39,443 bases of DNA from a virus, in IMG/VR virus record IMGVR_UViG_3300034101_001891, positions 1 to 39,443 of that record. One strand, given 5' to 3'. A program made the translations under genes and the position numbers. Under the pieces are notes generated by a model. That model was not told where the DNA came from. It worked only from the letters and a program-made list of their open reading frames with translations, and made no database searches. Positions 5,268-39,443 of this stretch are shown here, piece after piece. Positions within the stretch are counted from its first letter, which is position 1, and the number at the start of each line of letters is the position of its first letter.

Positions 5268-8200
5268 ATGAACTACGTTGGCTTACATGTCCATACACAC
5301 TACTCCTTAATGGATGGTGTTGCTACTCCAGAAGAATACGTGAACCGTGCAGTTGAGTTAGGAATGACAGCAATTGCCATTACTGACCACGGTACTTTAT
5401 CTGGGCATAGGGAACTGCACCGTATTGCAAAAGCAAATGGAATTAAGCCAATACTTGGTGTAGAAGGCTATATGACGACAAGTATGGCAGATAAGAGAGC
5501 AAAGGCAGATCGTCTTGATCCTCTTGACCAAAACTATCATCATATAGTCCTTCTCGCTAAGAACCAACAAGGCTTAGAAAATCTTAATAAGATTAATGAA
5601 CTTGCTTGGACAGATGGTTTCTTTAGCAAGCCAAGATTTGATTTTGAAACATTGGCAAAGTATAAGGAAGGAATCATTGTTACATCTGCATGCCTTAGTG
5701 GATGGATAGCAAAGGCTGTTGAGCTAGGTGAACTTGCAACAGCAAAGAAACACATACAGTGGTTTAAAAAAGAATTTGGTGACGATTACTATATTGAGGT
5801 AATGCCACATAATCCACCAGAAGTTAATAAAGGAATTATTGAGCTTGCTGATGCAGCAAAGGTTAAGATTGTTGTAACACCAGACTGTCATCACTCTGAC
5901 ACAAGTCAAAAAGAAGTTCAGGAACTGATGCTTCTTCTTAATACTCATGCTAAGTTACAGAAAGATGTTACATACGAAAAGTCAAAGAAGCATGAATCCT
6001 TTATGGATCGCCTTGATTATTTGTATGGTGCAGATCGTATGATGAGTTTTAATAAGTTTGATATACATCTTCTTTCATATGATGAAATGAAGGATGCAAT
6101 GTTAAAGCAAGGCATTGATCGTGAAGACATGTTTGCATCAACAAATGAAATTGCTGATAAAGTAGAGGGCTATGATATTAAAGAACATCTAGACCTTCTT
6201 CCAGTTCAGTACAAGAAGCCTATGGATGAGCTTAAGAAGCTTGCACTTGAAGGTCTTAAGGAAAGAAAGTTAGACAAGAGTGAAGAATATCTTGCACGTC
6301 TTGATGAAGAGTTAAAAATTATTGGTGAGAAAAACTTTGGTCCATACTTTCTAGTTGTTCGTAACATGCTTAACTGGGCAAAGAGCGAAGGCATCATGGT
6401 GGGCCCAGGTCGTGGCTCTGCTGCAGGTTCTTTGTTGTGTTACGCACTTGGCATTACAGACATTGATCCGATTAAGCATGGCTTATTGTTCTTCCGTTTT
6501 ATCAATCCAGACCGTAACGACTTCCCTGATATTGATTCAGATATTCAAGATACTCGTCGTGATGAGGTAAAGGACTACCTAGTTCGTCAGTACCGTCACG
6601 TTGCATCTATTGCTACCTTCTTACAGTTTAAAGATAAGGGTGTTGTGCGGGATGTTGCACGGTGCTTAAACATTCCTTTACCAGATGTTAATAAGGTACT
6701 TAAGGTTGTTGATACATGGGATGACTTCTGTACTTCAAAAAATACTTATTGGTTTAGAGAAAAGTATCCAGAGGTAGAGCGCTATGGAGACCAACTTCGT
6801 GGAAGAATTCGTGGTACTGGAATTCACGCAGCAGGAGTTGTAACAAGCAAAGACCCAATCTTTAGATATGCACCATTAGAAACACGATCAGTTACTGGAC
6901 AAGATGAACGGATTCCAGTAGTAGCGGTAGACATGGGCGAAGCAGAAAACATTGGTCTGATTAAAATTGATGCACTTGGACTAAAGACTTTAAGCGTTCT
7001 CAAGGATTGCATTGATATTATTAAGGAACGTGAAGGCACAAAGATTGATCTATTAAAGATTGATATGGACGATGCAAACGTATATACAATGCTATCTGAT
7101 GGATACACAAAGGGTGTGTTTCAATGTGAAGCAGCACCATATACAAATCTTCTAGTTAAGATGCGTGTTAAGAATCTAGCTGAGCTTGCAGCATCAAATG
7201 CCCTTGTTCGTCCTGGTGCTATGAATACTATTGGTAAATCCTATATTGCTCGTAAGCATGGTCGTGAGAACATTGACTACAAGCACCAAGTTATGAAATC
7301 ATTTACGGAGGAAACATATGGCTGTATTCTTTACCAGGAACAAGTTATGCAAGCATGCGTACAGCTTGGCGGTATGTCCATGTCGGAAGCAGATAAAGTT
7401 AGAAAGATCATTGGAAAGAAAAAGGATGCTAAAGAGTTTGATGTCTTCAAGGATCAGTTTGTTAAGGGCGCTTCGCAATATCTTTCGCCAAATGATGCGC
7501 TAGACCTATGGCATGACTTTGAGGCTCACGCAGGGTACTCATTCAATAAGTCTCACGCAGTAGCATATTCAACACTCTCATACTGGACAGCATGGTTAAA
7601 ATATTACTATCCTCTTGAGTTTATGTTTGCATTGCTAAAGAATGAGAAGGACAAGAGCGGAAGAACAGAATATCTTATTGAGGCAAAGCGCATGGGAATC
7701 TCTGTTAAGCTTCCTCATATTAATGATTCAGATATTGACTTTAAGATTGAGGGCAAAGGTATCAGGTTTGGTCTTACTGGCATTAAGTACATATCTGATA
7801 AGATAGCCGAAAGGTATATTGCAAGTCGTCCATTTGCTTCATACAAAGAGGTAGAAGAATTTACTTTTACAAAAGGTAATGGAGTAAATAGTCGTGCTTT
7901 ACAAGCAATGAAATGTGTAGGCGCACTTACATTCCCAGACAATCCAATAAATATGGAAGAAGTTAAAGAGAACTTGTATGAGTACCTAAATCTTCCTGAG
8001 TTTAACACATCTATTCCACAGCATTACTATGCTTACATTAATGATGTTGAAGAATATGAGGAAACTGGATCGTTTGTATTATTGGGTATGGTAAAATCAA
8101 TTAAGCGAGGAACAGGGTGGTCAAGAGTTGAAGTTTTGGACAAGACTGGCAGTGTTGGTATATTTGATGAAGAGTCTACGTCTATTGAGACTGGTCGTAC

Positions 8201-8543
8201 TTATCTTATTCTTGCAAGTGACAATAGGATTGTATCTTCAGTACCTGCTGACGAGATAAAAGGATCTAAGAGTTCCTTGGTAAAGTTTTTAAACTATAAG
8301 ATGCTTCCGTATAAAGATGGTGAGCACTTTGTAGTTTCATTTAAGCCAAGAGTAACTAAAGCTGGAAAGAAGATGGCATCTTTAGTAGTGGCAGATGCAG
8401 GAAGAGAGATGCACTCAATCGTTGTGTTTCCAATGCAGTTTGCAAAAGCGTACATGAAGATTGAAGAAGGAAATGTATATAGGTTTGATTTTGGAAAAAC
8501 AAAGGATGGAACAATTACAATGAATGAGGTAGAAAATGTTTGA
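5268..8543 (+). CDS. dnaE: DNA polymerase III alpha subunit (DnaE type)
   Basis: This 1091-residue protein has the full C-family polymerase order. A PHP domain opens it (HVHTHYSLMDG at 7-17 and TDHGT near 39-43). The palm follows, with GPGRGSAAGS and the catalytic PDIDSD motif (Asp421, Asp423), and later IKIDALGLKTL carrying the third aspartate. Helix-hairpin-helix and C-terminal OB domains follow (FVLLGMVKSIKRG). The length is slightly below host DnaE (about 1160). It replicates the phage genome. The ATG follows the previous stop after 3 nt with no strong ribosome site, so it is probably coupled. Its 3' end overlaps the MazG-like gene by 8 nt. Confidence 0.95.
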   Translation: MNYVGLHVHTHYSLMDGVATPEEYVNRAVELGMTAIAITDHGTLSGHRELHRIAKANGIKPILGVEGYMTTSMADKRAKADRLDPLDQNYHHIVLLAKNQQGLENLNKINELAWTDGFFSKPRFDFETLAKYKEGIIVTSACLSGWIAKAVELGELATAKKHIQWFKKEFGDDYYIEVMPHNPPEVNKGIIELADAAKVKIVVTPDCHHSDTSQKEVQELMLLLNTHAKLQKDVTYEKSKKHESFMDRLDYLYGADRMMSFNKFDIHLLSYDEMKDAMLKQGIDREDMFASTNEIADKVEGYDIKEHLDLLPVQYKKPMDELKKLALEGLKERKLDKSEEYLARLDEELKIIGEKNFGPYFLVVRNMLNWAKSEGIMVGPGRGSAAGSLLCYALGITDIDPIKHGLLFFRFINPDRNDFPDIDSDIQDTRRDEVKDYLVRQYRHVASIATFLQFKDKGVVRDVARCLNIPLPDVNKVLKVVDTWDDFCTSKNTYWFREKYPEVERYGDQLRGRIRGTGIHAAGVVTSKDPIFRYAPLETRSVTGQDERIPVVAVDMGEAENIGLIKIDALGLKTLSVLKDCIDIIKEREGTKIDLLKIDMDDANVYTMLSDGYTKGVFQCEAAPYTNLLVKMRVKNLAELAASNALVRPGAMNTIGKSYIARKHGRENIDYKHQVMKSFTEETYGCILYQEQVMQACVQLGGMSMSEADKVRKIIGKKKDAKEFDVFKDQFVKGASQYLSPNDALDLWHDFEAHAGYSFNKSHAVAYSTLSYWTAWLKYYYPLEFMFALLKNEKDKSGRTEYLIEAKRMGISVKLPHINDSDIDFKIEGKGIRFGLTGIKYISDKIAERYIASRPFASYKEVEEFTFTKGNGVNSRALQAMKCVGALTFPDNPINMEEVKENLYEYLNLPEFNTSIPQHYYAYINDVEEYEETGSFVLLGMVKSIKRGTGWSRVEVLDKTGSVGIFDEESTSIETGRTYLILASDNRIVSSVPADEIKGSKSSLVKFLNYKMLPYKDGEHFVVSFKPRVTKAGKKMASLVVADAGREMHSIVVFPMQFAKAYMKIEEGNVYRFDFGKTKDGTITMNEVENV

Positions 8544-12807: not shown

Positions 12808-13333
12808 AGAAGAGCTCGTAAAACACCTTGATGTAATGAATGATGTTGTTAGCGAATATCTAAAAGGTAGTGACCCAACGACAATCTCTAAAGAGTTAGC
12901 AATACCTAGAACACGTGTGGTTGCATACATTGATGAATGGAAAGAAAAAACATCAAATAACACTGCAATTCGTGCTCGTGCAAAAGATGCTCTCGCTGGC
13001 GCTGATGCACACTATAGCAAGCTAATATTAAAATCTTATGAAGTTATTGATGAAGCATCCATGACAAATAATCTTAGTGCAAAAACTGCTGCTATTAAAT
13101 TAGTGATGGACATTGAGTCTAAACGTATTGATATGTTGCAGAAAGCTGGATTACTTGAGAACAAAGAGCTTGCTGAAGAAATGGTTGAGATTGAGAGAAG
13201 ACAAGAAGTTCTTGTTGGAATTCTTCGTGATATTGCTTCTACTAATCCAGAAGTGAGAGATATTATTATGCAACGGCTATCTGCTATTGCAAAAGAAGGA
13301 GAAGTGATTACTGTTGTCCACGATGTTCAATGA
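12797..13333 (+). CDS. Putative terminase small subunit
   Basis: A 178-residue protein directly upstream of and overlapping the large terminase. The N-terminal third has an HTH-like segment (DPTTISKELAIPRTRVVAYIDEW), and the rest is a long helical region (MLQKAGLLENKELAEEMVEIERRQEVL). Small terminases recognise phage DNA and present it to the motor through an N-terminal HTH and a helical oligomerisation domain. Architecture and gene order support this, but no family-specific motif is seen. Confidence 0.7.
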   Translation: MSSEEELVKHLDVMNDVVSEYLKGSDPTTISKELAIPRTRVVAYIDEWKEKTSNNTAIRARAKDALAGADAHYSKLILKSYEVIDEASMTNNLSAKTAAIKLVMDIESKRIDMLQKAGLLENKELAEEMVEIERRQEVLVGILRDIASTNPEVRDIIMQRLSAIAKEGEVITVVHDVQ

Positions 13334-15095
13334 TTTCTTTGAGGTACTAAAAGAAAATCATTTTGTTGAGAAGCCTGTTGACGCAAAAACATTTGTTGAG
13401 TCACCAGACTATCTTGGGCAACCTCCACTATCTGATATACAGTATGACATAGTTGAAGCCATGAGTCAGATATACCGCAAAGAAGACGTTGTAGATATTC
13501 GTGGTGACGATGGTGAAGAATACTTTAAGAAATACACCAAGAATGAGATTATCCTGCAACTTGGCAAGGGATCTGGAAAAGACTTCGTATCTACAGTAGC
13601 ATGTGCATATGTGGTGTATAAGATGCTATGTTTGAAAGATCCAGCAGTTTACTACGGTAAGCCTGCTGGAGATGCTATTGATATCATTAACGTTGCTATT
13701 AACGCTCAACAGGCTAAAAACGTTTTCTTTAAAGGCTTTAAATCAAAGATTGAACGATCACCATGGTTTGCAGGAAAGTATAATCCAAAAGCAGACTCAA
13801 TTGAGTTTGATAAATCAATCACAGTTTACTCTGGTCACTCAGAGCGTGAATCACATGAGGGTTTGAACTTGTTTATGGCTGTACTTGATGAAATTTCTGG
13901 TTTTGCATCAGAGGTAGCAACAGGAAATGAACAAGGAAAAACTGCTGACAATATCTATAAAGCTTTCCGTGGAACTGTAGACTCTCGTTTCCCTGATCTT
14001 GGTAAGGTTGTTTTGCTTTCATTCCCAAGATATCCAGGAGACTTTATTTCTCAACGGTATGATGCAGTTATTGCTGATAAGGAAGTAGTAGAAAAAACAC
14101 ACAGATTCATAATAAATGAAGACCTGCCACACGATAACCCTGATAACTATTTTGAGATATCTTGGGATGAAGATCATATTTTGTCTTATAAGATTCCAAA
14201 AGTATTAGCATTAAAGCGTCCAACATGGGATGTAAACCCAACAAGACAGATTGATGACTTTAAGATTGCTTTTCTAACAGACCTAGGAGATGCAATGATG
14301 CGTTTCTTATGCACACCAACCTATGCATCTGATGCATTTTTTAAGCAAAAGGATAAGCTTATTAACTGTATGACCTTAACAAATCCTGTTGATAGTTTTA
14401 GAAGGTTTGCAGAAAACTTTAAGCCAGATCCAGATAAACAATACTATATACATGCTGACCTTGCACAAAAACACGATAAGTGTGCTGTTGCTATTGCTCA
14501 CGTTGACAAGTGGGTAAACATTCAGGTAATTAAAGATTATGAACAGGTAGCACCAATAGTTGTAGTAGATGCAGTAGCATGGTGGGAGCCAAAAGCAGAA
14601 GGACCTGTTAATTTATCTGAGGTAAAGCAATGGATTATTAATCTACGCAGACAAGGTTTTAATATTGGAATTGTTTCATTTGACCGTTGGCAGTCATATG
14701 ATATTCAGCAAGAGCTGAAGCAGGTAGGAATAAGAACTGATACTGTTTCTGTTGCCAAAAAACACTACGAAGATTTAGCAATGATGGTCTATGAGGAGCG
14801 TATTGCTATGCCCATGATTCCCTTGCTTCTGGATGAAATGTCAGAGCTTAAGATCATGAAGGGTAATCGTGTAGATCACCCTAGAAAGAAGTCTAAGGAC
14901 TTAGCAGATGCTGTTTGTGGGGCAGTATTTGGTGCCATCTCTCATACCCCAAAGGAAATGAATATTGAGATAGATATTCATACATGGGGATCTGCGGATA
15001 AAGTTGCAAGACAGCAGAGAGCTATGGTAGAATTGGAAGACAGGCAAATGCCTGAAGATGTCAAGAGTTTTCTTGATAACCTAAAACTAATATAA
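13314..15095 (+). CDS. terL: Terminase large subunit
   Basis: The packaging motor has about 593 residues. Its ATPase domain carries Walker A GKGSGKD at 84-90 and Walker B MAVLDEIS with Asp192/Glu193. The RNase H-like nuclease domain has Asp382 (YIHADLAQKHDKC), Asp457 (IVSFDRW) and Asp532 (KDLADAVCG). The start is uncertain: TTG at 13314 lies 12 nt after an AAGGAG site, whereas the ATG at 13323 is 21 nt away. It hydrolyses ATP to drive DNA into capsids and cuts the concatemer. Unusually, no portal gene follows; exported-protein genes do. Confidence 0.93.
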   Translation: MSTMFNDFFEVLKENHFVEKPVDAKTFVESPDYLGQPPLSDIQYDIVEAMSQIYRKEDVVDIRGDDGEEYFKKYTKNEIILQLGKGSGKDFVSTVACAYVVYKMLCLKDPAVYYGKPAGDAIDIINVAINAQQAKNVFFKGFKSKIERSPWFAGKYNPKADSIEFDKSITVYSGHSERESHEGLNLFMAVLDEISGFASEVATGNEQGKTADNIYKAFRGTVDSRFPDLGKVVLLSFPRYPGDFISQRYDAVIADKEVVEKTHRFIINEDLPHDNPDNYFEISWDEDHILSYKIPKVLALKRPTWDVNPTRQIDDFKIAFLTDLGDAMMRFLCTPTYASDAFFKQKDKLINCMTLTNPVDSFRRFAENFKPDPDKQYYIHADLAQKHDKCAVAIAHVDKWVNIQVIKDYEQVAPIVVVDAVAWWEPKAEGPVNLSEVKQWIINLRRQGFNIGIVSFDRWQSYDIQQELKQVGIRTDTVSVAKKHYEDLAMMVYEERIAMPMIPLLLDEMSELKIMKGNRVDHPRKKSKDLADAVCGAVFGAISHTPKEMNIEIDIHTWGSADKVARQQRAMVELEDRQMPEDVKSFLDNLKLI

Positions 15096-21381: not shown

Positions 21382-21963
21382 ATGAGTCAGGTTATTTTTA
21401 ATTCTTTTCCAAGATCAGCCAACGTATATCTTGGTCGTGTCTCAGCTGAGATATTAATTTCTGATTATGCTACAGTTCATATACCAGAGATATTTAGCGT
21501 AAAAGAAATATATAACGTTACAGTTTTTAGAAAACCAGAGGACTCAATATCTTCACTTATAAATAAACGGATTGAGGTAAGTTCAAATACAACAGACTTA
21601 TCTATTAGGGATACTGCCAAAGAGCTATCTAATCTTTATAGAAAATATATGATGTATGCTAAGAATAATAGTGACAATATATATATAGCAAAGTTTGATG
21701 ACATCATAGAAAATACCGTAGCAAATTTTCTTAATATATCTAAAAGATTTGATATTAAGCTTAATGATAATTATGAGGATAGGTTTAAAAGTATATCTTT
21801 TTCTGGGAGGGTATGGGAAGACAGATATGATGGACACTACCCAAGAGAAAAGCATGAAGATAGACTTCATATAGAAGAATTGGTTAGATCTCTTGACTTT
21901 ATCCAAGAACTTAATAAGGATTATGAAGATTTTATAGAGGTCTATGCAACAAAGAATATATGA
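21382..21963 (+). CDS. Sulfotransferase-like protein
   Basis: A 193-residue protein with AAAGGAG as ribosome site. The N-terminal NSFPRSANVYLG at 7-18 matches the 5'-phosphosulfate loop (FPRSGxxWL) of PAPS-dependent sulfotransferases, and VTVFRKPEDSISSL matches the 3'-phosphate motif (RxPxDxxxS). The rest is helical and shorter than cellular enzymes. It would transfer sulfate from PAPS to an alcohol or amine; the acceptor cannot be read. An APS-kinase domain further on (26168) could feed it. The Ser-Ala-Asn in place of Ser-Gly-Thr is a variation. Confidence 0.7.
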   Translation: MSQVIFNSFPRSANVYLGRVSAEILISDYATVHIPEIFSVKEIYNVTVFRKPEDSISSLINKRIEVSSNTTDLSIRDTAKELSNLYRKYMMYAKNNSDNIYIAKFDDIIENTVANFLNISKRFDIKLNDNYEDRFKSISFSGRVWEDRYDGHYPREKHEDRLHIEELVRSLDFIQELNKDYEDFIEVYATKNI

Positions 21964-22564: not shown

Positions 22565-23320
22565 ATGAAATCAATTTACGATATTCCACTAAACTCTGCT
22601 GAAGGTAATCCTAACTTCCTTGATCAATTCAAGGGCAAGGTAACAATGATTGTTAACACTACTGTTGGTTGCGGTAATGCCAATCAGTTAGAAGTCTTAC
22701 AGTGGCTTCAATCAAAATATGGGGGAGACGATTTCCAGATAGTTGCTATTCCAACAAACGATTACTGTGGCCCAGGAGTTACAAAGGGCAAGTGGTCAGA
22801 AGGTATTACATGTGGTTTAGATTCTCAAGAATACGGTAAAGATGCGTATGGTGTAACTTTCCAGTATTCTGAAATGATTGGTTCTAATCCACACCCAGAG
22901 GTATCTCAAGCACATGGTAAAAATGGTTTAGGTCAAGAAAATCTTCCAGTACACGCAATGTATCAGGAAATATCTAGTCAAATGATAGAGCTAAAGCAAG
23001 CTAATAATAAGTTAGGAATAGCTCCATCACAAGATTATTACTCTTGGTGGCTAAATCTTGGTTTTGATAATGGTGAAACTATGGGCGGTAATTTTGAAAA
23101 ATATCTTATTGATAAAGATGGATATGTTATTAAGCATTACCACTGTACAGTATTAAATTACGACATAGAGAAGACCCTAAAGGATTCATTAACTGAAGCT
23201 GGTCATCCTGTCATGATTGGCATAGGAAGATCTAAAAAGATCTTTCAAGAAGAATATGATTTAATTTGCAGTGATATTGAAGCTGCAATTACTGGCCAAA
23301 AGTCTGTTCTGAATAGCTAA
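22565..23320 (+). CDS. Glutathione-peroxidase-like thiol peroxidase
   Basis: A 251-residue protein. Residues 1-80 follow the GPx fold closely: SIYDIPLNSAEG, then NTTVGCGN with the peroxidatic Cys36 in the position of the catalytic Cys/Sec, then LQSKYGGDDFQIVAIPTNDY. The late FEKYLIDKDGYVIKHY is the standard C-terminal GPx segment. It should reduce H2O2 or lipid peroxides with thioredoxin-type donors, as most bacterial GPx proteins do. It is longer than common GPx (about 160) because of a central insertion and a C-terminal extension. It is translated from a predicted leaderless message. Confidence 0.82.
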   Translation: MKSIYDIPLNSAEGNPNFLDQFKGKVTMIVNTTVGCGNANQLEVLQWLQSKYGGDDFQIVAIPTNDYCGPGVTKGKWSEGITCGLDSQEYGKDAYGVTFQYSEMIGSNPHPEVSQAHGKNGLGQENLPVHAMYQEISSQMIELKQANNKLGIAPSQDYYSWWLNLGFDNGETMGGNFEKYLIDKDGYVIKHYHCTVLNYDIEKTLKDSLTEAGHPVMIGIGRSKKIFQEEYDLICSDIEAAITGQKSVLNS

Positions 23321-24517: not shown

Positions 24518-25126
24518 ATGATTGATCCAACAAAAATACTAGCTGGAGCAGTCGCTATTTATGAAAATATATGGGACAGCTTGGCTGAAGATATTAAGTT
24601 TATAGATACAATATCTTCAGACCAAGAGTCTTTGGTATATTTTGAAAAAGCAAAAATCAAAAGTGAAGAAGATGGAGTGATTAAAGGGTTAGAACAAGTA
24701 AGAACAAACTCTACCTTGTCTTTAAAAAAATCCTCACAATTTAATGAATCATTAAAAAATATTGATGATAAGTTTAATAGTATTACTAAAGAATGCTTAA
24801 GTAGTTATCGTAAAATTTTTGATATCAATGAGCCATTTTATTATACAGAACACAACAATTTGCTAAAATATACTGACTCACAATACTTTAGGTCACATTA
24901 TGATGGAGATACTGGATCTAAACGTTCAATATCTTTAATTCTTTATTTAAACGATGAATATGATGGTGGAGAAATTGAGTTTGTTAACTTTGACATAAAA
25001 ATTAAACCAAGTGCTGGATCTTTATTTATATTTCCATCAAATTATGCATATAGGCATATAGCGCACCCAATAAAGTCTGGAACAAAATATGCAATTGTAA
25101 CATGGATTCACGATAGGATACAATGA
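24518..25126 (+). CDS. 2OG-Fe(II) oxygenase, prolyl-4-hydroxylase-like
   Basis: A 202-residue protein. The iron site is His127/Asp129 (HYDGD) and His180 (YRHIAHP), with Lys190 in the place of the 2OG-binding Arg/Lys (SGTKYAIVTW). These match the P4H-type Fe(II)/2-oxoglutarate dioxygenases, which hydroxylate side chains or small molecules. The N-terminal 90 residues are a helical extension. The next gene, another member of the superfamily, overlaps by 4 nt. Confidence 0.8.
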   Translation: MIDPTKILAGAVAIYENIWDSLAEDIKFIDTISSDQESLVYFEKAKIKSEEDGVIKGLEQVRTNSTLSLKKSSQFNESLKNIDDKFNSITKECLSSYRKIFDINEPFYYTEHNNLLKYTDSQYFRSHYDGDTGSKRSISLILYLNDEYDGGEIEFVNFDIKIKPSAGSLFIFPSNYAYRHIAHPIKSGTKYAIVTWIHDRIQ

Positions 25127-25719
25127 ATAACTTAGAGTATTTTAATGAAAATGGTTACGTTATAGTAAGAAATGTGGTAAGCAAAGAATTGACTGACTTT
25201 CTTACACAGTATGCATTTTTAGATGAAAAGAATAACTTTGAATCTGACATACAGGTTCCTGGGTCACATGCTAAATATGCAGATATGGCTATGGAATCTT
25301 TATTATTAATGCTTCAGGAAGTAGTAGAAGACAATACTGGTCTTAGTCTACACCCAACATATTCATACTATAGATTGTATAGGCCTGGTGCAGAATTAAA
25401 AAGACATAAGGATAGACCTTCATGTGAAATATCAATGACGGTAGCTATTGGAAATTATTATGTAGAAGATGGATATACTTGGCCAATATTCATAGATGGT
25501 CAAGAATGTGTGCTGAATACTGGAGACATACTTATATATAAAGGTATGCAGGTTGAGCACTGGAGAAATACTTTTGATACATCTGAAGGGTCATGGCATC
25601 TTCAAACATTCTTGCACTATGTTAATGCAGAAGGTCAGCATTCAGGCTGGAAGTATGATAAAAGACCTGAAATCGGATACATTCCTGAAAAAAATAACAA
25701 ACAATTAGAGATGGGGTAG
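25123..25719 (+). CDS. 2OG-Fe(II) oxygenase, second type
   Basis: A 198-residue protein whose first residues read like the start of phytanoyl-CoA-dioxygenase-type proteins (YFNENGYVIVRNVVS). His95 and Asp97 (KRHKDRPSCEIS) plus His146 (VEHWRN) give the iron facial triad. It overlaps the other oxygenase by 4 nt (ATGA), so the two are made together. The substrate is not indicated. Confidence 0.75.
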   Translation: MNNLEYFNENGYVIVRNVVSKELTDFLTQYAFLDEKNNFESDIQVPGSHAKYADMAMESLLLMLQEVVEDNTGLSLHPTYSYYRLYRPGAELKRHKDRPSCEISMTVAIGNYYVEDGYTWPIFIDGQECVLNTGDILIYKGMQVEHWRNTFDTSEGSWHLQTFLHYVNAEGQHSGWKYDKRPEIGYIPEKNNKQLEMG

Positions 25720-25913: not shown

Positions 25914-26171
25914 ATGACTACAATGATTAAAGATGATACTATTAAGCCAGAGTGGGTTCTGAAAGCAACAGACCGTTGTGATTCTTGTGCAGCAGAAGCT
26001 TTGGTTCAGGTTACTGGACTAAATGGACAACTTCTTTTTTGTGGTCATCATTATAATAAAATTATGAATAATTCAGATGGGTATAAAAAAATGATGTCTT
26101 TTGCAATAACCATACTTGATGAGCGTGATAAGCTTATTGAAAACAAAGCAACAGAGGAGCCACACGCATGA
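25914..26171 (+). CDS. Actinobacterial-type cysteine-rich small protein (DUF7455-like)
   Basis: The protein has 85 residues from the ATG at 25914; an upstream GTG at 25905 and a downstream ATG at 25923 are alternatives. The segment WVLKATDRCDSCAAEALVQV followed by LLFCGHHYNK has a CxxC and a CxHH metal site. This pattern is typical of a small protein family in actinobacteria and their phages, and supports the host assignment. The role is unknown. Confidence 0.7.
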   Translation: MTTMIKDDTIKPEWVLKATDRCDSCAAEALVQVTGLNGQLLFCGHHYNKIMNNSDGYKKMMSFAITILDERDKLIENKATEEPHA

Positions 26172-26929
26172 TTATTCAGATTATTGGACTGCCAGGTTCT
26201 GGTAAAACAGAATTAGCAAAGGCACTTAAAGAACGCATTAATGCTATTCATCTTAATGCAGATGAGGTTCGTGCAACAGTCAACTCAGACTTGGGGTTTG
26301 CACCAGAAGATAGACTAGAACAGTCTCGTCGCATGGGAGAGATGGCTCGTCTAATTTCCAAGCAAGGCGTTGCTCCAGTCATTGTTGACTTTGTTTGTCC
26401 AACAGACCTAACTCGTGTAGCATTTGGCAAGCCAGACATTTTGGTATTCATGGACACAATTGCAGAGGGTCGCTTTGAAGACACAAATAAAATGTTTGAA
26501 AGACCAACAGAGTTTGATGTATCATTTATTAGTCACAACTTGGATGCAGAATCAAAAGCATCTCATATAATTGATAAGTTTAGCCTACATGATTGGTCTG
26601 CACCTACAACTCTTATGCTGGGTAGGTATCAGCCATGGCACGAGGGCCACCACGCCCTTTACAAGGAGGCTGGCAAGAGAACTGATCAAGTCCTTCTTGG
26701 AGTCCGTAATACCTACAATACAAGTGAGAAAGATCCTCTTAAGTTTGATCAGGTAAAAGAATATATTGCCAAGGACGAATTTATGGATGGGGCATTAGTA
26801 TTAAGATTGCCTAACATCACTAACATTGTGTATGGTCGTGATGTAGGGTATAAGATTGAGCAAGTAGATTTGGGGGCAGACATTCATGCTATATCGGCTA
26901 CGCAAAAACGTAAAGAAATGGGTATCTAA
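26168..26929 (+). CDS. Fused APS-kinase-like and nucleotidyltransferase protein
   Basis: A 253-residue protein with two domains. Residues 1-145 are a P-loop kinase: GLPGSGKT at 7-14 and the run LNADEVRATVNSDLGF, which matches the APS-kinase (CysC) pattern with its following SRRMGEMARL helix. Residues 146-253 are a cytidylyltransferase/NadM-type fold: GRYQPWHEGHH at 152-162 and ISATQKRKEMG near the end. The first domain may make PAPS; the second would adenylylate or cytidylylate an unknown substrate. Such fusions are seen in other phages. The start overlaps the previous stop (ATGA). Confidence 0.8.
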   Translation: MIIQIIGLPGSGKTELAKALKERINAIHLNADEVRATVNSDLGFAPEDRLEQSRRMGEMARLISKQGVAPVIVDFVCPTDLTRVAFGKPDILVFMDTIAEGRFEDTNKMFERPTEFDVSFISHNLDAESKASHIIDKFSLHDWSAPTTLMLGRYQPWHEGHHALYKEAGKRTDQVLLGVRNTYNTSEKDPLKFDQVKEYIAKDEFMDGALVLRLPNITNIVYGRDVGYKIEQVDLGADIHAISATQKRKEMGI

Positions 26930-26981
26930 AATTTGGAAAGTAATTAGTAAAGGCCCTGACAATATGGAGTGGCCAGCATGA
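26886..26981 (+). CDS. Possible 31-residue basic peptide
   Basis: A short ORF that starts inside the kinase fusion gene (GGGGG about 9 nt upstream) and ends with TGA overlapping the next ATG. It has a basic, amphipathic N-terminus (LRKNVKKWVSKIWKVI) and ends GPDNMEWPA. Coupling at both ends argues for translation, but no homologue is recognised. Confidence 0.35.
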   Translation: MLYRLRKNVKKWVSKIWKVISKGPDNMEWPA

Positions 26982-27181
26982 AAGTAACAAAGGCTAGGTC
27001 GTTTGCTAAGGCACTAAGTTATCGTATATGGGGAACACTTTCCTCAGTTGCTGTTGCTTATGTTATTACAAAGAATGCTGCCCTGTCTGTCACAATTGCA
27101 TTTTGGGAAACGGTAGTTAAAATATTCATTTACTACGCACATGAGCGTGGATGGAACTATGTACAGTGGGGGAGGAAATAA
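26978..27181 (+). CDS. DUF2061 membrane protein (second copy)
   Basis: The ATG at 26978 with GGAG upstream gives 67 residues; an in-frame GTG at 26969 is less likely. KARSFAKALSYRIWGT and YYAHERGWNYVQWG flank two hydrophobic spans, as in the copy at 24303. The TAA overlaps the halogenase ATG (TAATG), so the two may be made in proportion. Confidence 0.75.
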   Translation: MKVTKARSFAKALSYRIWGTLSSVAVAYVITKNAALSVTIAFWETVVKIFIYYAHERGWNYVQWGRK

Positions 27182-28704
27182 TGACAAAAAAAATAGTTGT
27201 TATTGGTGGAGGTAGTGCTGGATGGCTGACAGCTCTTTACATAAAAAAAGAATATCCAGATCTAGATTTAACTGTAGTTGAGTCTAAAGAAATTGGAATA
27301 TTGGGTGCTGGAGAAGGAACTACCCCAAGACTAATAGAATTTTTAGAGACACTTGACATACCTTTAAGCGATATAGTAAAAAACTGCGATGCTACAATAA
27401 AAAATGGAATTAAATTTACGAATTGGAACAATGATGGAAAGTTTTACTACCATGGTTTTGCATTAAAAGGTCCAACACTACTTGGCTTTGATGCAGAATC
27501 ACAAGACTTATTCTCAAGACCATTGGTGTTATCAAGTATTATTAAAAATAATTCACACTCAGATGTTGATTTTATTGAAAAAATTTCAGAATTAAACAAG
27601 GTTCCATTTACATATAAAGAGCATACTGTTGATGAACTAGATAGCCACCATGATAAGCTTGGTCTTCATGCAATACATTTTGATGCTGCAAAATTTGCAG
27701 CTAGACTAAAGCAAATTGGTATAGATCGCAATATAAAAATAATAGAAAAAACAATTACAGATATATCTGTAAATCAAAAAAATAATGTAGATAAAATATT
27801 ATTTGATGATGCTACACAAATTGAATGTGATTTTGTTTTTGACTGTAGTGGTTTTCATAGATTAATTATAGGAAAGATTTTTGATGCAAAGTGGAAGAGT
27901 TATGGCGACTTTTTGCCATCAGATTCTGCATTGCCATTTTTCACTGATGTTGAAAATGATATTCCACCCTATACTGAAGCAATTGCTATGAAGTATGGTT
28001 GGATGTGGAAAATTCCATTGCAATCAAGATTTGGCTGCGGATATGTTTATGACTCATCATTAATATCAGAAGATGAAGCAGCACAAGAGATAGAAGAGTT
28101 TCTTGGTTATACACCAACGTATCCAAGAAAAGGTAAGGGAGCATTTAAGTTTAGTGCTGGATGCTATGAAGAAACATGGGTTAATAACTGTGTAGCGATT
28201 GGACTGGCTGCAAACTTTATAGAACCTCTAGAGGCAACATCTATATGGATAAGCATTAATATGCTTAGAAGACTGTTAACAAATCCAGAATGGCTTTTTG
28301 ATGATGTTTCATGTATAAGAGATGAATTCAATAAAGATGTATTGTCTATGAATAACGACATGTCAGAGTTTATATATTTTCATTATATGAGCCAGAGAAA
28401 AGATACTGATTTTTGGAAAAAGTTTACTTATGAAAAAGCTCCAGAGTCATTGAAGCAAAGGCTAAATTTATGGAAACAAAGATTTCCAACAAAGAATGAC
28501 GGAGGACCTTACTGGGCTTCTGATAGCTGGCTAATAGTTGGTCTGGGTATTGATGTCATTAGTAAACATGTGGCTAGAAGATACATAGATAATTCAAAAA
28601 AATATAATGACTTTTTTAATAAATATTACCATTATCTTGCTAGACAAAATTCAAAAAGAGATGATTGCATGGACCATAGACAATTTTTGGAGTCATTAAA
28701 ATGA
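27181..28704 (+). CDS. Flavin-dependent halogenase (tryptophan-halogenase family)
   Basis: A 507-residue protein with the strong ribosome site GGGGGAGGA. The FAD-binding GGGSAGW lies at residues 9-15 and GEGTTPR near 44-50. Lys74 (TIKNGIKF) sits where the catalytic lysine of PrnA/RebH occurs, the WxWxIP signature is present (Trp274, Trp276, Ile278, Pro279), and Glu351 in FIEPLEATS matches the second catalytic residue. FADH2 and O2 would make HOCl or HOBr, directed by the lysine to an aromatic carbon. The enzyme needs a flavin reductase, which is not seen here. Flavin halogenases are known in cyanophages (VirX1 from Syn10). The substrate is unknown. Confidence 0.88.
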   Translation: MTKKIVVIGGGSAGWLTALYIKKEYPDLDLTVVESKEIGILGAGEGTTPRLIEFLETLDIPLSDIVKNCDATIKNGIKFTNWNNDGKFYYHGFALKGPTLLGFDAESQDLFSRPLVLSSIIKNNSHSDVDFIEKISELNKVPFTYKEHTVDELDSHHDKLGLHAIHFDAAKFAARLKQIGIDRNIKIIEKTITDISVNQKNNVDKILFDDATQIECDFVFDCSGFHRLIIGKIFDAKWKSYGDFLPSDSALPFFTDVENDIPPYTEAIAMKYGWMWKIPLQSRFGCGYVYDSSLISEDEAAQEIEEFLGYTPTYPRKGKGAFKFSAGCYEETWVNNCVAIGLAANFIEPLEATSIWISINMLRRLLTNPEWLFDDVSCIRDEFNKDVLSMNNDMSEFIYFHYMSQRKDTDFWKKFTYEKAPESLKQRLNLWKQRFPTKNDGGPYWASDSWLIVGLGIDVISKHVARRYIDNSKKYNDFFNKYYHYLARQNSKRDDCMDHRQFLESLK

Positions 28705-28985
28705 ATTTTAGAACAGAATGGATTAATGCATTAAAGACAATGAGACATAGGTCTTATTGGGATTTACCAAACACTGTAGAGTTTTTTGCTTTTATGACTA
28801 AAGTAGCAATTATTATTCCAGGTCTTATTTTTGGAATACAATTTTGGTGGCTATATATCTTTGCATTAATAACTAGTCTATCTTTGATTTGGTCATCAAC
28901 AGTTAAAACATTGCCAACAATTATTTGGTTTAATATAATCTGGTCAATTCTTGCAACAACTGCAATAATTAAATATTGGGTCTAA
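28701..28985 (+). CDS. Membrane protein downstream of halogenase
   Basis: A 94-residue protein overlapping the halogenase by 4 nt (ATGA). It has about three hydrophobic segments from residue 28 to the end, with aromatic-rich faces (FWWLYIFALITSLSLIW). Coupling to the halogenase hints at a shared function, for example at the membrane, but no family is recognised. Confidence 0.6.
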   Translation: MNFRTEWINALKTMRHRSYWDLPNTVEFFAFMTKVAIIIPGLIFGIQFWWLYIFALITSLSLIWSSTVKTLPTIIWFNIIWSILATTAIIKYWV

Positions 28986-28995
28986 GGGGGCTTAT

Positions 28996-29403
28996 ATGTA
29001 TGAATACTATGTAAGAAAAGTAGAGAATGTCGTAGATGGAGATACCATTGATGTTCTTATTGATTTAGGGTTTGACATCCTGTTCTCATCTCGTGTTAGA
29101 CTGGCTGGTATTGATACCCCTGAGTCTCGCACAAAGGATCTAAAAGAGAAGGCTCTTGGTCTTGAGTCTAAGGAGTACTTAAAGAAGGCTCTAAAAGATG
29201 CCAAGTCTGTTGTAATCAAGACAGAAAAGATGAACTCAACTGAAAAGTTTGGTCGTATTCTTGGTTGGATCTATGTTAATGGAGATACAGTTTCTTTAAA
29301 TGACATGATGATTAATGACGGTTATGCATGGGGATACTTAGGTGATACGAAGGTAAAAGATTTTGATGTTCTTGCAAAGGCTAGAAAGAAGTCTGGCAAG
29401 TGA
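28996..29403 (+). CDS. Staphylococcal-nuclease-like (SNase) protein
   Basis: A 135-residue OB-fold nuclease. NVVDGDTIDV is the first metal/strand motif, RVRLAGIDTPESR carries the catalytic Arg and Glu/Asp positions, and FGRILGWIYVNG is the late core segment. SNase-type enzymes cleave DNA and RNA with calcium. No export signal is visible, so it acts inside the cell, perhaps on host DNA or in recombination. It overlaps the thioredoxin start by 4 nt. Confidence 0.85.
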   Translation: MYEYYVRKVENVVDGDTIDVLIDLGFDILFSSRVRLAGIDTPESRTKDLKEKALGLESKEYLKKALKDAKSVVIKTEKMNSTEKFGRILGWIYVNGDTVSLNDMMINDGYAWGYLGDTKVKDFDVLAKARKKSGK

Positions 29404-29651
29404 GTCATGTACTATACTTTACTGCTGAGTGGTGTAATCCTTGTCAGCGTACCAGACCAATAGCAGAAGAGCTAAAGAAAGATGGAATGATTGATTTTAT
29501 TTTTGTTGATGCAGATACAGAAATAGAGCTACTTAAAAAGTTTGGTATTAAGTCTGTACCAACCTACGTACTTCTAGAAGATGGAAGAGAAGTAAAACGT
29601 ATGAATGGTGCAAAGACTCGTCAAGAGTTCCTGGACTTTGTAGATGTTTGA
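29400..29651 (+). CDS. Thioredoxin
   Basis: An 83-residue thioredoxin starting with GTG. The active site is AEWCNPC (Cys12, Cys15), and KSVPTYVLL supplies the cis-proline. It reduces disulfides and could supply electrons to the phage GPx-like peroxidase or to a ribonucleotide reductase elsewhere. It is shorter than common thioredoxin (about 105) and lacks the first strand-helix unit. Confidence 0.82.
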   Translation: MSHVLYFTAEWCNPCQRTRPIAEELKKDGMIDFIFVDADTEIELLKKFGIKSVPTYVLLEDGREVKRMNGAKTRQEFLDFVDV

Positions 29652-32078: not shown

Positions 32079-32366
32079 ATGAAACAACACTTATGGAAAG
32101 ATGAAGGCCGTTGTTTTGACTCAGATACCAATTTATTTTTTGACAAATATGAAGAAGATGAATCTCTCAGACCAAAAATAGATGATTTGTGTCAGTCATG
32201 CCCAGTTCAAAGAGTATGCTTTGCTAATGGTGTGTCAGGTAAAGAGTGGGGTGTCTGGGGCGGTATATACTTAGAGAATGGCGAAATATCAAGAGAGTTT
32301 AGCAGGCACAGAAATAAAGAAAAGTGGGGTCAAATGTGGACAAGTCTAACAACAGAAAAGAAGTAA
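32079..32366 (+). CDS. whiB: WhiB-family transcription factor
   Basis: A 95-residue protein with the WhiB cysteines Cys12, Cys38, Cys41 and Cys47 (CQSCPVQRVC), which hold a 4Fe-4S cluster, and the turn motif GVWGG at about 58-62, followed by a basic tail. WhiB proteins are found only in actinobacteria and their phages and bind the housekeeping sigma factor. A phage copy could redirect host transcription or sense redox state, which fits the redox gene content. The AAGG ribosome site is weak. Confidence 0.92.
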   Translation: MKQHLWKDEGRCFDSDTNLFFDKYEEDESLRPKIDDLCQSCPVQRVCFANGVSGKEWGVWGGIYLENGEISREFSRHRNKEKWGQMWTSLTTEKK

Positions 32367-33444: not shown

Positions 33445-34335
33445 ATGGAGTTTTATTACTTTGGTGGAAACTTTAATCCTGGTGAAATAACCAGATTAGA
33501 AAAGAGTCATTTTGATGGAGTTATGTTTGTATATGACGCAATTCTTGGTGACGTTTTTACAAAAGTAGCAAGAGATATAAGACTAAATGAAAAGATTAAA
33601 TATCTAGTTGCAATTAGACCCTATACAATATCTCCACAATATTTATGCATGATTAGCAAATCAATAAACTCAATTGCTCCAGGCAGAATACAGGTTAACC
33701 TAATATCTGGATATGTTAAAGAGCATGAAAAAGATTTTGGGGGCATCATAGGAGATATCAATGATGACTCAGATCGTATTGATAGGTCTAATTATTTGAT
33801 AGAATACGTAAAAATGCTTAACACTATGCCTGGAAATAAAAGAAAGCATTTATTAGATTTTTATGTATCAACAACCAACGAATATGTTTTTAATGAAGTT
33901 TCGCAAAACAGCAATAAAATGATATTGCCATACAGAGACTATAAAAATGGATACTGGACAGTAGTTAGTGAAAAAAGCGGTCAAGATGTAGGAAATAGTT
34001 TTGACATATCTGGTCAAAATATAATGTTAGCTTTGACACCAATAATTAGAAGGACAGAAGAAGAGCTTAGTATTTCTGAAGAATATGTTAATAGACCTGT
34101 ATGGCGAGATGGTGAAAAAACAGGTAAAGTAAATGACATTGAATTCTTTACTTTTCAACAGTTTGACGACTTCATGAAAAAGTTGCAAAGTGAAGGTATA
34201 AATCAAGTTTTAATTAATGGTTTTCCAGAAAAAGAAAGGGAAAACATTATTAATTTTATTAAACATTACAAAGAATTGGGGCTATCTAAAAATAGTTTGC
34301 CTCATGATGATCATAAAGATCATAGAATATCCTAG
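33445..34335 (+). CDS. Luciferase-like flavin monooxygenase
   Basis: A 296-residue protein of the bacterial-luciferase/SsuD TIM-barrel type. The N-terminal strand DGVMFVYDAILGD and the segment IKYLVAIRPYTISPQ, then APGRIQVNLISGY, match the conserved LLM region that binds FMNH2. The C-terminal part is shorter than in SsuD (about 380). It would oxidise an unknown organic substrate with O2 and a reduced flavin, which must come from a reductase not seen here. Sulfonate oxidation is one possibility because sulfotransferase and APS-kinase genes are near, but that is speculation. Confidence 0.7.
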   Translation: MEFYYFGGNFNPGEITRLEKSHFDGVMFVYDAILGDVFTKVARDIRLNEKIKYLVAIRPYTISPQYLCMISKSINSIAPGRIQVNLISGYVKEHEKDFGGIIGDINDDSDRIDRSNYLIEYVKMLNTMPGNKRKHLLDFYVSTTNEYVFNEVSQNSNKMILPYRDYKNGYWTVVSEKSGQDVGNSFDISGQNIMLALTPIIRRTEEELSISEEYVNRPVWRDGEKTGKVNDIEFFTFQQFDDFMKKLQSEGINQVLINGFPEKERENIINFIKHYKELGLSKNSLPHDDHKDHRIS

Positions 34336-38459: not shown

Positions 38460-39443
38460 TTATTTATTCTCCTTAAGAAATAGATCAGCATTCATAACCT
38501 TGGTCCATGCAGAAACAAAGTCATTTACAAACTTTTGTTTAGCATCATCTGCAGCATAAACTTCAGCAATTGCTCTAAGCTCTGAGTTAGATGCAAGGAT
38601 TAGGTCAACACGAGGAATGTTGACTGCTTCATTAGCATTAACATATGAAAGTAGTTGAACTAGATAGCTATTGTCTAGGTTATCATTGCTCAATGTTCTC
38701 ATACCAGCTAGCAATACCACTAACTCTACTGGATTTAGTCCTAGCAGATTAGCCTTTTCTACCAGAAGAACTTCTGCTGGCTCTGTAATGCTACTGTGAA
38801 TATAGTTGCGGAAAGGATCAAACTTTGGCTCAAGAACTGTAAATGATTCAACATCTGTCTGCTCTTGTGTTGCATCTCCACGCATAAACTTTGCAGTGAT
38901 ATCAGCACCAAATCCAGAGTTCTTAGCACCAATACCAACAGCAACGCTACCAGCAAATACAATTAGATCTGCAAGAGATACATTGAAGTCTTCTTTAATA
39001 CTATTTAAAACAGAAACCACTCTGTTAATAGCTTCATGGTCATTTACTTCCCATGTATTCTGTGGAGCAAGAACAATTCTTGCACCGTTAGCTCCACCAC
39101 GCTTGTCTGTCTTTCGGAATGTTGATGCAGATGCCCAAGCAGTTGTAACTAAATCAGAAACAGAAAGCCCAGATTCAATAATTCTTTCCTTAATGATATC
39201 CACTTCCTCTTGTACCAATGTAGTTCTTGTTACATTGCTAACAGGATCTTGCCAGATAAGCTGCTCAGAAGGAACTTCTTTGCCAAGGTATCTTGAAATT
39301 GGACCCATATCACGATGAGTTAGCTTAAACCAAGCACGAGCAAATTGATCTGAGAAGTAGTCAAAGTCTTCAAGGAATCGTCGTGAAATCTTTTCATACT
39401 CTGGATCAAACTTTAATGCGAGGTCTGCAGTTGTCATCACTGG
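38460..39443 (-). CDS. katG: Catalase-peroxidase KatG (C-terminal part; gene runs off the window)
   Basis: The frame is open to the window edge and covers about 328 C-terminal residues. The sequence begins with the family motif [20 protein letters not shown], then [23 protein letters not shown] and WQDPV, and continues through the C-terminal heme-less domain ([26 protein letters not shown]). The length remaining fits about the last 45 percent of a KatG of about 730 residues; the heme half lies outside. KatG destroys H2O2. No frame break is seen in the part present. It lies upstream of a small membrane gene and three tRNA genes on the same strand. Confidence 0.93.

Follow-up and report, generated by a model that had tools for sequence, protein, structure and literature searches.

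A predicted flavin-dependent halogenase and a coupled small membrane protein inserted as a pair in an actinophage-like genome

The halogenase gene and the membrane protein behind it

The window, by which we mean the whole stretch of DNA analysed, is a linear fragment of 39,443 bases that covers its IMG/VR record entirely and has a GC content of 37%. Positions 27181-28704 (+) encode a protein of 507 residues that matches the Pfam profile PF04820 (Trp_halogenase) over profile positions 1-451 of 458 (E 6.6e-105), the PHROGs entry PHROG 2928, 'tryptophan halogenase' (E 2.5e-107), and solved halogenases at E-values down to 1e-68. The reading frame runs from an ATG at 27181 to a TGA at 28702-28704 and is free of internal stops. 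A GGAGG Shine-Dalgarno sequence, read directly from the DNA, lies at 27171-27175 (+), five bases before the ATG. An alternative ATG at 27151 is a less likely start: it is the codon at 27181 that the GGAGG precedes and that overlaps the stop of the DUF2061 gene upstream.

The signature residues of this enzyme family are in place. The FAD-binding motif GGGSAGW (residues 9-15; 27205-27225, +) and the WMWKIP form of the WxWxIP signature (residues 274-279; 28000-28017, +) were identified from the sequence and an alignment of relatives. Lys74 (27400-27402, +), the lysine of a TxK motif, occupies the alignment column of K79 in PrnA and RebH, and Glu351 (28231-28233, +), within EPLEATS, occupies that of E346 in PrnA, aligning as the second glutamate of EPLEST/EPLEAT in solved halogenases. 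The catalytic roles of this lysine and glutamate have been described (PMC5945002). Among 80 aligned viral relatives, GGGSAGW, the lysine, WxWxIP and the glutamate are invariant save for gaps, truncated copies and residue 12, which is serine or threonine, and the catalytic residues also fall in the catalytic columns of our tree alignment with VirX1 and with bacterial and phage enzymes. A sequence-only reading of the window had listed these four elements; their positions are as we read them, and both alignments place the lysine and the glutamate where catalysis requires them. By its sequence, the gene is a PF04820 flavin-dependent halogenase with intact signature residues, for which catalysis is predicted.

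Directly behind the halogenase lies a gene for a small membrane protein of 94 residues (hereafter MP; 28701-28985, +), whose ATG overlaps the halogenase stop as ATGA (28701-28704), an arrangement that couples their translation. MP has three predicted helices in a low-confidence model (pLDDT 65.5, pTM 0.41), a polar N-terminal stretch, a strictly conserved core and 8 tryptophans, several of them invariant across halogenase clades. We found no match to it in Pfam (up to E 1), in PHROGs or in 50,697 phage records, which speaks against a known family and leaves it an orphan; for a transporter like SemiSWEET or PnuC, a fold search with the low-confidence model was uninformative, returning SemiSWEET (4x5n) only at E 7.8.

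The association of the two genes extends far beyond the window. MP is the next gene after the halogenase in 78 of the 80 loci examined, always with 94 residues, and starts at -3 relative to the halogenase end in 72 loci and at -10 in 6. At least 519 related halogenase stretches occur in IMG/VR, and a scan with MP itself returned at least 530 relatives. Among 73 newly listed MP loci, a window-type halogenase is directly upstream in 66, a halogenase of 31% identity overlaps MP by 10 nt in 4, the contig edge intervenes in 2, and one (L253) has no halogenase. The coupled downstream membrane protein had already been noticed from the letters of the window, and the survey turns it into a stronger signal than that reading could have known. 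As far as the databases and literature were searched, this conserved membrane partner of a halogenase is new. Comparisons of close relatives give dN/dS values of about 0.05-0.15 in the halogenase gene and 0.04-0.16 in the MP gene (the value for the window against L005 was left out as an alignment-offset artefact), and these low ratios imply that both genes are kept by purifying selection.

Phage lineage and insertion site

Several genes place the window among actinophages. The DnaE-like DNA polymerase III alpha subunit (5268-8543, +) is about 55% identical to Streptomyces phage polymerases, and the terminase large subunit (TerL; 13314-15095, +) is about 53% identical to those of Streptomyces phages Karimac and Yaboi; polymerase and terminase together are 53-56% identical, at 100% coverage, to proteins of Streptomyces phages of 126-134 kb (Wakanda, Jay2Jay, Karimac). 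By sequence homology, the phage is kin to this Karimac/Wakanda group, which we take to be the family Stanwilliamsviridae. Contigs related to the window reach 115-120 kb in length. A WhiB-like transcription factor (32079-32366, +; PF02467 above cut-off), also found in 7 of 8 related contigs, belongs to a family described as an actinophage marker (PMC6802176, PMC10202952). WhiB, the polymerase and terminase homologies and the 37% GC content support a low-GC actinophage, in agreement with the earlier description of the genome as actinophage-like, and we infer that the host belongs to the low-GC actinobacteria of aquatic habitats, such as Nanopelagicales or Actinomarinales. The halogenase family is common, and the hosts of its phages are probably of this kind.

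The two genes lie between a DUF2061 membrane protein gene (26969-27181, +), whose stop overlaps the halogenase start as TAATG, and a gene for an SNase-family nuclease (28996-29403, +). Outside these borders, an APS-kinase-like P-loop kinase with a C-terminal half resembling NMN-adenylyltransferase (26168-26929, +) served as the anchor in a search for empty sites and does not belong to the inserted module; this kinase is 86-98% conserved in the best 80 matches, with DUF2061 nearly always behind it. In all 61 anchored contigs that have no halogenase in the stretch fetched, which had room for it, MP was absent from the site as well. In 28 of these, DUF2061 is joined to SNase by a stop-start overlap, TAATG, identical to the one by which DUF2061 meets the halogenase in the window. 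Halogenase and MP have thus been inserted seamlessly, as a pair of genes, in a cargo slot. Other cargo has been found there: in L286, a gene similar to Asp/Asn hydroxylases (PF05118; 6240-6815) occupies the slot before SNase instead, making the site a swap point for accessory enzymes, and an ORF similar to that gene holds the same slot in L303 (1693-2268).

Some further observations concern the surroundings. Small sulfotransferase-like genes with weak PF00685 matches lie near the kinase in L303 (1067-1696) and L253 (3280-3909), and a window ORF at 21382-21963 is similar in look, with no Pfam match. At the end of the contig, a heme peroxidase gene (38460-39440, -; PF00141 E 5e-22, above cut-off), unusual in a phage, is possibly cut off by the contig end.

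Linkage or partnership

Gene linkage in a cargo slot could by itself produce a conserved pair, and the distribution of MP was therefore examined both by position and over whole contigs. The contigs share ancestry and are incomplete, and some of them are short. When the window genes were tested with regard to position, MP was present in 74 of 74 informative loci with a halogenase and in 0 of 57 without, and no other window gene tested combined full presence in the former with full absence from the latter. Other candidates for a shared pathway behaved differently. One 2OG-Fe(II) oxygenase gene (24518-25126) is rarer in halogenase loci (6/53 vs 27/49) and a second (25123-25719) is nearly absent from both kinds of locus, while a thioredoxin gene (29400-29651), considered as a redox partner, is likewise rarer beside the halogenase (8/58 vs 21/42); we rejected all three. 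A gene similar to glutathione peroxidases (22565-23320, +; PF00255 E 5e-10) occurs in 19 of 54 halogenase loci and 0 of 20 others by position, a weak association. The case of a divergent luciferase-like flavin monooxygenase resembling RutA and SsuD (33445-34335, +; PF00296 E 9.7e-5, below cut-off; RutA E 1.3e-4) is instructive. By position it accompanies the halogenase in 47 of 59 loci against 1 of 23 without (p 2e-10); over whole contigs it is equally common in the two classes (about 8/18 vs 8/19). We therefore rejected it as a third partner, and its rejection demonstrates that the whole-contig test is able to dismiss a candidate.

MP was put to the same test. The whole-contig tally comprised 36 contigs chosen by their kinase or polymerase, mostly blind to halogenase and MP; one of them, L321, entered with a halogenase already known to lack an adjacent MP, a bias against the result. 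Both genes were present in 4 contigs, neither in 31, MP alone in none, and a halogenase alone in 1, the latter of the unrelated S-H38/P-SSM2 type (Fisher 8.5e-5, with independence overstated because the contigs are related).

The strongest alternative to a functional partnership is that the halogenase is active and that MP has an independent role, for example in superinfection exclusion or membrane remodelling, and is carried along by linkage in the cargo slot. Many short contigs do have MP at a primase site with no halogenase beside it, two fragments of 30-40 kb (G041, G044) have MP and no halogenase, and in L253 the halogenase is missing, so MP may have a role of its own. The alleles also reassort: between the window and L004, dS is 0.013 for the halogenase and 0.54 for MP. 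Halogenase and MP alleles recombine freely, and their pairing is consequently not allele-specific. Against independence, the co-occurrence holds over a distance: in G032, MP lies at the primase site and the halogenase 27 kb away in the cargo slot, with both present. It also extends to halogenases of two clades and to three or more gene neighbourhoods: MP stands behind VirX1-clade halogenases in different surroundings (L264, L411, L416, L420), and the gene order in G027 is primase, MP, halogenase and an ssb-like gene. Finally, every contig of the whole-record set with a halogenase of the window type or the VirX1 type also had MP. An independent MP is thus a possible but rather unlikely reading, and the distribution of the two genes suggests that halogenase and MP work together. 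In G027 (L505), a second halogenase, partial or divergent, lies at 111672-112811, 28 kb from the first.

If the two proteins do cooperate, MP would most likely act as an anchor or feeder for the enzyme, ahead of roles as transporter or substrate; the reassortment of alleles favours this, as it argues against a tight residue-by-residue fit. A further idea is that the tryptophan-rich MP is itself the substrate, the phage halogenating its Trp or Tyr residues through a dedicated protein-halogenating pair of enzyme and substrate, which we regard as improbable.

Predicted activity and comparison with known halogenases

At a probability of roughly 0.6, we favour the reading that the gene specifies an active enzyme, a flavin-dependent halogenase with the tryptophan-halogenase fold, and that MP is its functional partner. 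A host reductase would supply reduced FAD to the GGGSAGW domain, where its reaction with O2 and halide would generate HOX; the HOX would pass to Lys74 and, with the help of Glu351, an electron-rich aromatic group would be halogenated in an open pocket. Because this pocket has no motif for free tryptophan, its substrate probably exceeds tryptophan in size or is attached to a membrane or peptide. The three-helix MP would place the enzyme at the inner membrane or feed substrate from there, and the pair would be an accessory module that enters and leaves the cargo slot and that, during infection, modifies some molecule of the host or the phage. The flavin is assigned to the host because neither the window nor any of 19 related contigs, with lengths up to 120 kb, yielded a Flavin_Reduct gene (PF01613); no flavin reductase appeared among the ORFs scanned with Pfam, and the earlier remark that the window encodes no reductase holds for its relatives as well.

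The lack of a neighbouring gene for a reductase or carrier protein could also be read as pointing to an enzyme with this fold that has lost halogenation and acts as a flavin monooxygenase or hydroxylase, and the actinophage enzyme of DSL-LC01, discussed below, offers an example of a phage copy losing signature residues; yet WxWxIP, the lysine and the glutamate, which are linked to halogenation, are invariant in the aligned relatives, and we consider such a loss highly improbable. Also highly improbable is a classical free-tryptophan halogenase making halo-tryptophan in the manner of PrnA and RebH, to which the Pfam and PHROG names, an identity of about 22-26% and the shared fold would point, but which the missing Trp4 motifs of both known Trp-halogenase groups and a C-terminal region like that of Xcc4156 and BrvH, which refuse free tryptophan, speak against.

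Trp4 is the motif that clamps the amino and carboxy groups of free tryptophan (PMC8269204). Neither its group A nor its group B pattern was found in the window enzyme with 6 and 2 mismatches allowed, and the last 107 residues of the protein match Xcc4156 (6y1w) best. On motifs, then, the window enzyme is not a free-tryptophan halogenase. As to group C, the open-pocket family of BrvH and Xcc4156 that is marked by short substrate loops and the lack of Trp4, in the window enzyme Trp4 is absent and the C-terminus is nearest to 6y1w, while the pocket model (pLDDT 67) is unreliable. This low-confidence model still matches the structures of Thal, PrnA and RebH (E about 1e-27 to 1e-26); it is too weak in residues 225-349, and we judged the pocket by sequence for that reason. 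The comparison with the PrnA and RebH pockets proposed in the sequence-only reading was accordingly answered at the level of sequence, by the missing Trp4.

In the topology of a tree from a single FastTree run on VirX1, bacterial and phage enzymes and viral relatives, the window enzyme groups with phage enzymes that include that of pelagiphage HTVC008M, apart from VirX1. HTVC008M and four MAG contigs (L084-L087) branch near the base of this group. One of the four, L086, from a MAG labelled Klebsiella pneumoniae, has a halogenase 40% identical to the phage enzyme and is possibly a misbinned phage contig. Near-identical copies aside, identity to the other members found is at most 66%, whereas identities above 90% are frequent for the genes around it in the same phages, which indicates a mosaic genome whose halogenase is one of several deeply diverged alleles.

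VirX1 of cyanophage Syn10 (PDB 6qgm), which the sequence-only reading had named for comparison, resembles the window enzyme in being a virus-encoded PF04820 enzyme with the same catalytic residues and no Trp4, and has a broad, open active site (PMC8407142). It differs in clade, in its cyanophage host and in having no MP, and its match to the window enzyme (phmmer E 5e-52) is weaker than those of Trp halogenases; closeness to VirX1 is not supported. In related IMG/VR phage contigs (L264, L420), halogenases of the VirX1 clade do carry MP. The nearest annotated phage enzyme is instead that of Pelagibacter phage HTVC008M (40% identity over 91%), in the same broad clade; its locus has a phytanoyl-CoA dioxygenase-like gene before it, terL after it and no MP.

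An actinophage halogenase is not itself new, contrary to the earlier expectation: a 'tryptophan halogenase' of Actinomycetia phage DSL-LC01 (OQ999401) was published in 2023 (PMC10611076). Like the window phage, DSL-LC01 is an actinophage with WhiB and a PF04820 gene (L082, 8977-10548); the enzyme is only 29.5% identical to the window enzyme, has GWVSKIP in place of the window's GWMWKIP and EPLD in place of its EPLE, adjoins collagen-like and glycosyltransferase genes and has no MP match. The degenerate WxWxIP and the change of glutamate to aspartate make its catalysis doubtful, and in the records searched the family of the window enzyme may be the first actinophage example with all signature residues.

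Among bacterial enzymes, PrnA, RebH and Thal share with the window enzyme the fold, the FAD motif, the lysine, WxWxIP and the glutamate; the window has neither their Trp4 clamp nor a biosynthetic gene cluster nor a reductase. Xcc4156 and BrvH (PDB 6y1w, 6frl) lack Trp4 as the window enzyme does and are closest to it in the C-terminal region, although they are bacterial and its region 1 is longer than in related chromosomal enzymes. Both are described as having an open pocket and not accepting free tryptophan, and larger substrates, perhaps peptides, have been suggested for them (PMC5945002, PMC7336383). The occurrence of MP with halogenases of two clades, in several arrangements, provides a handle on the substrates of phage and group C halogenases. 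To our knowledge, no natural substrate is known for phage halogenases, VirX1 included, or for many group C enzymes such as BrvH and Xcc4156. Set beside these systems, the enzyme family is an ordinary one, and the new element, as far as we have searched, is its conserved and testable membrane partner.
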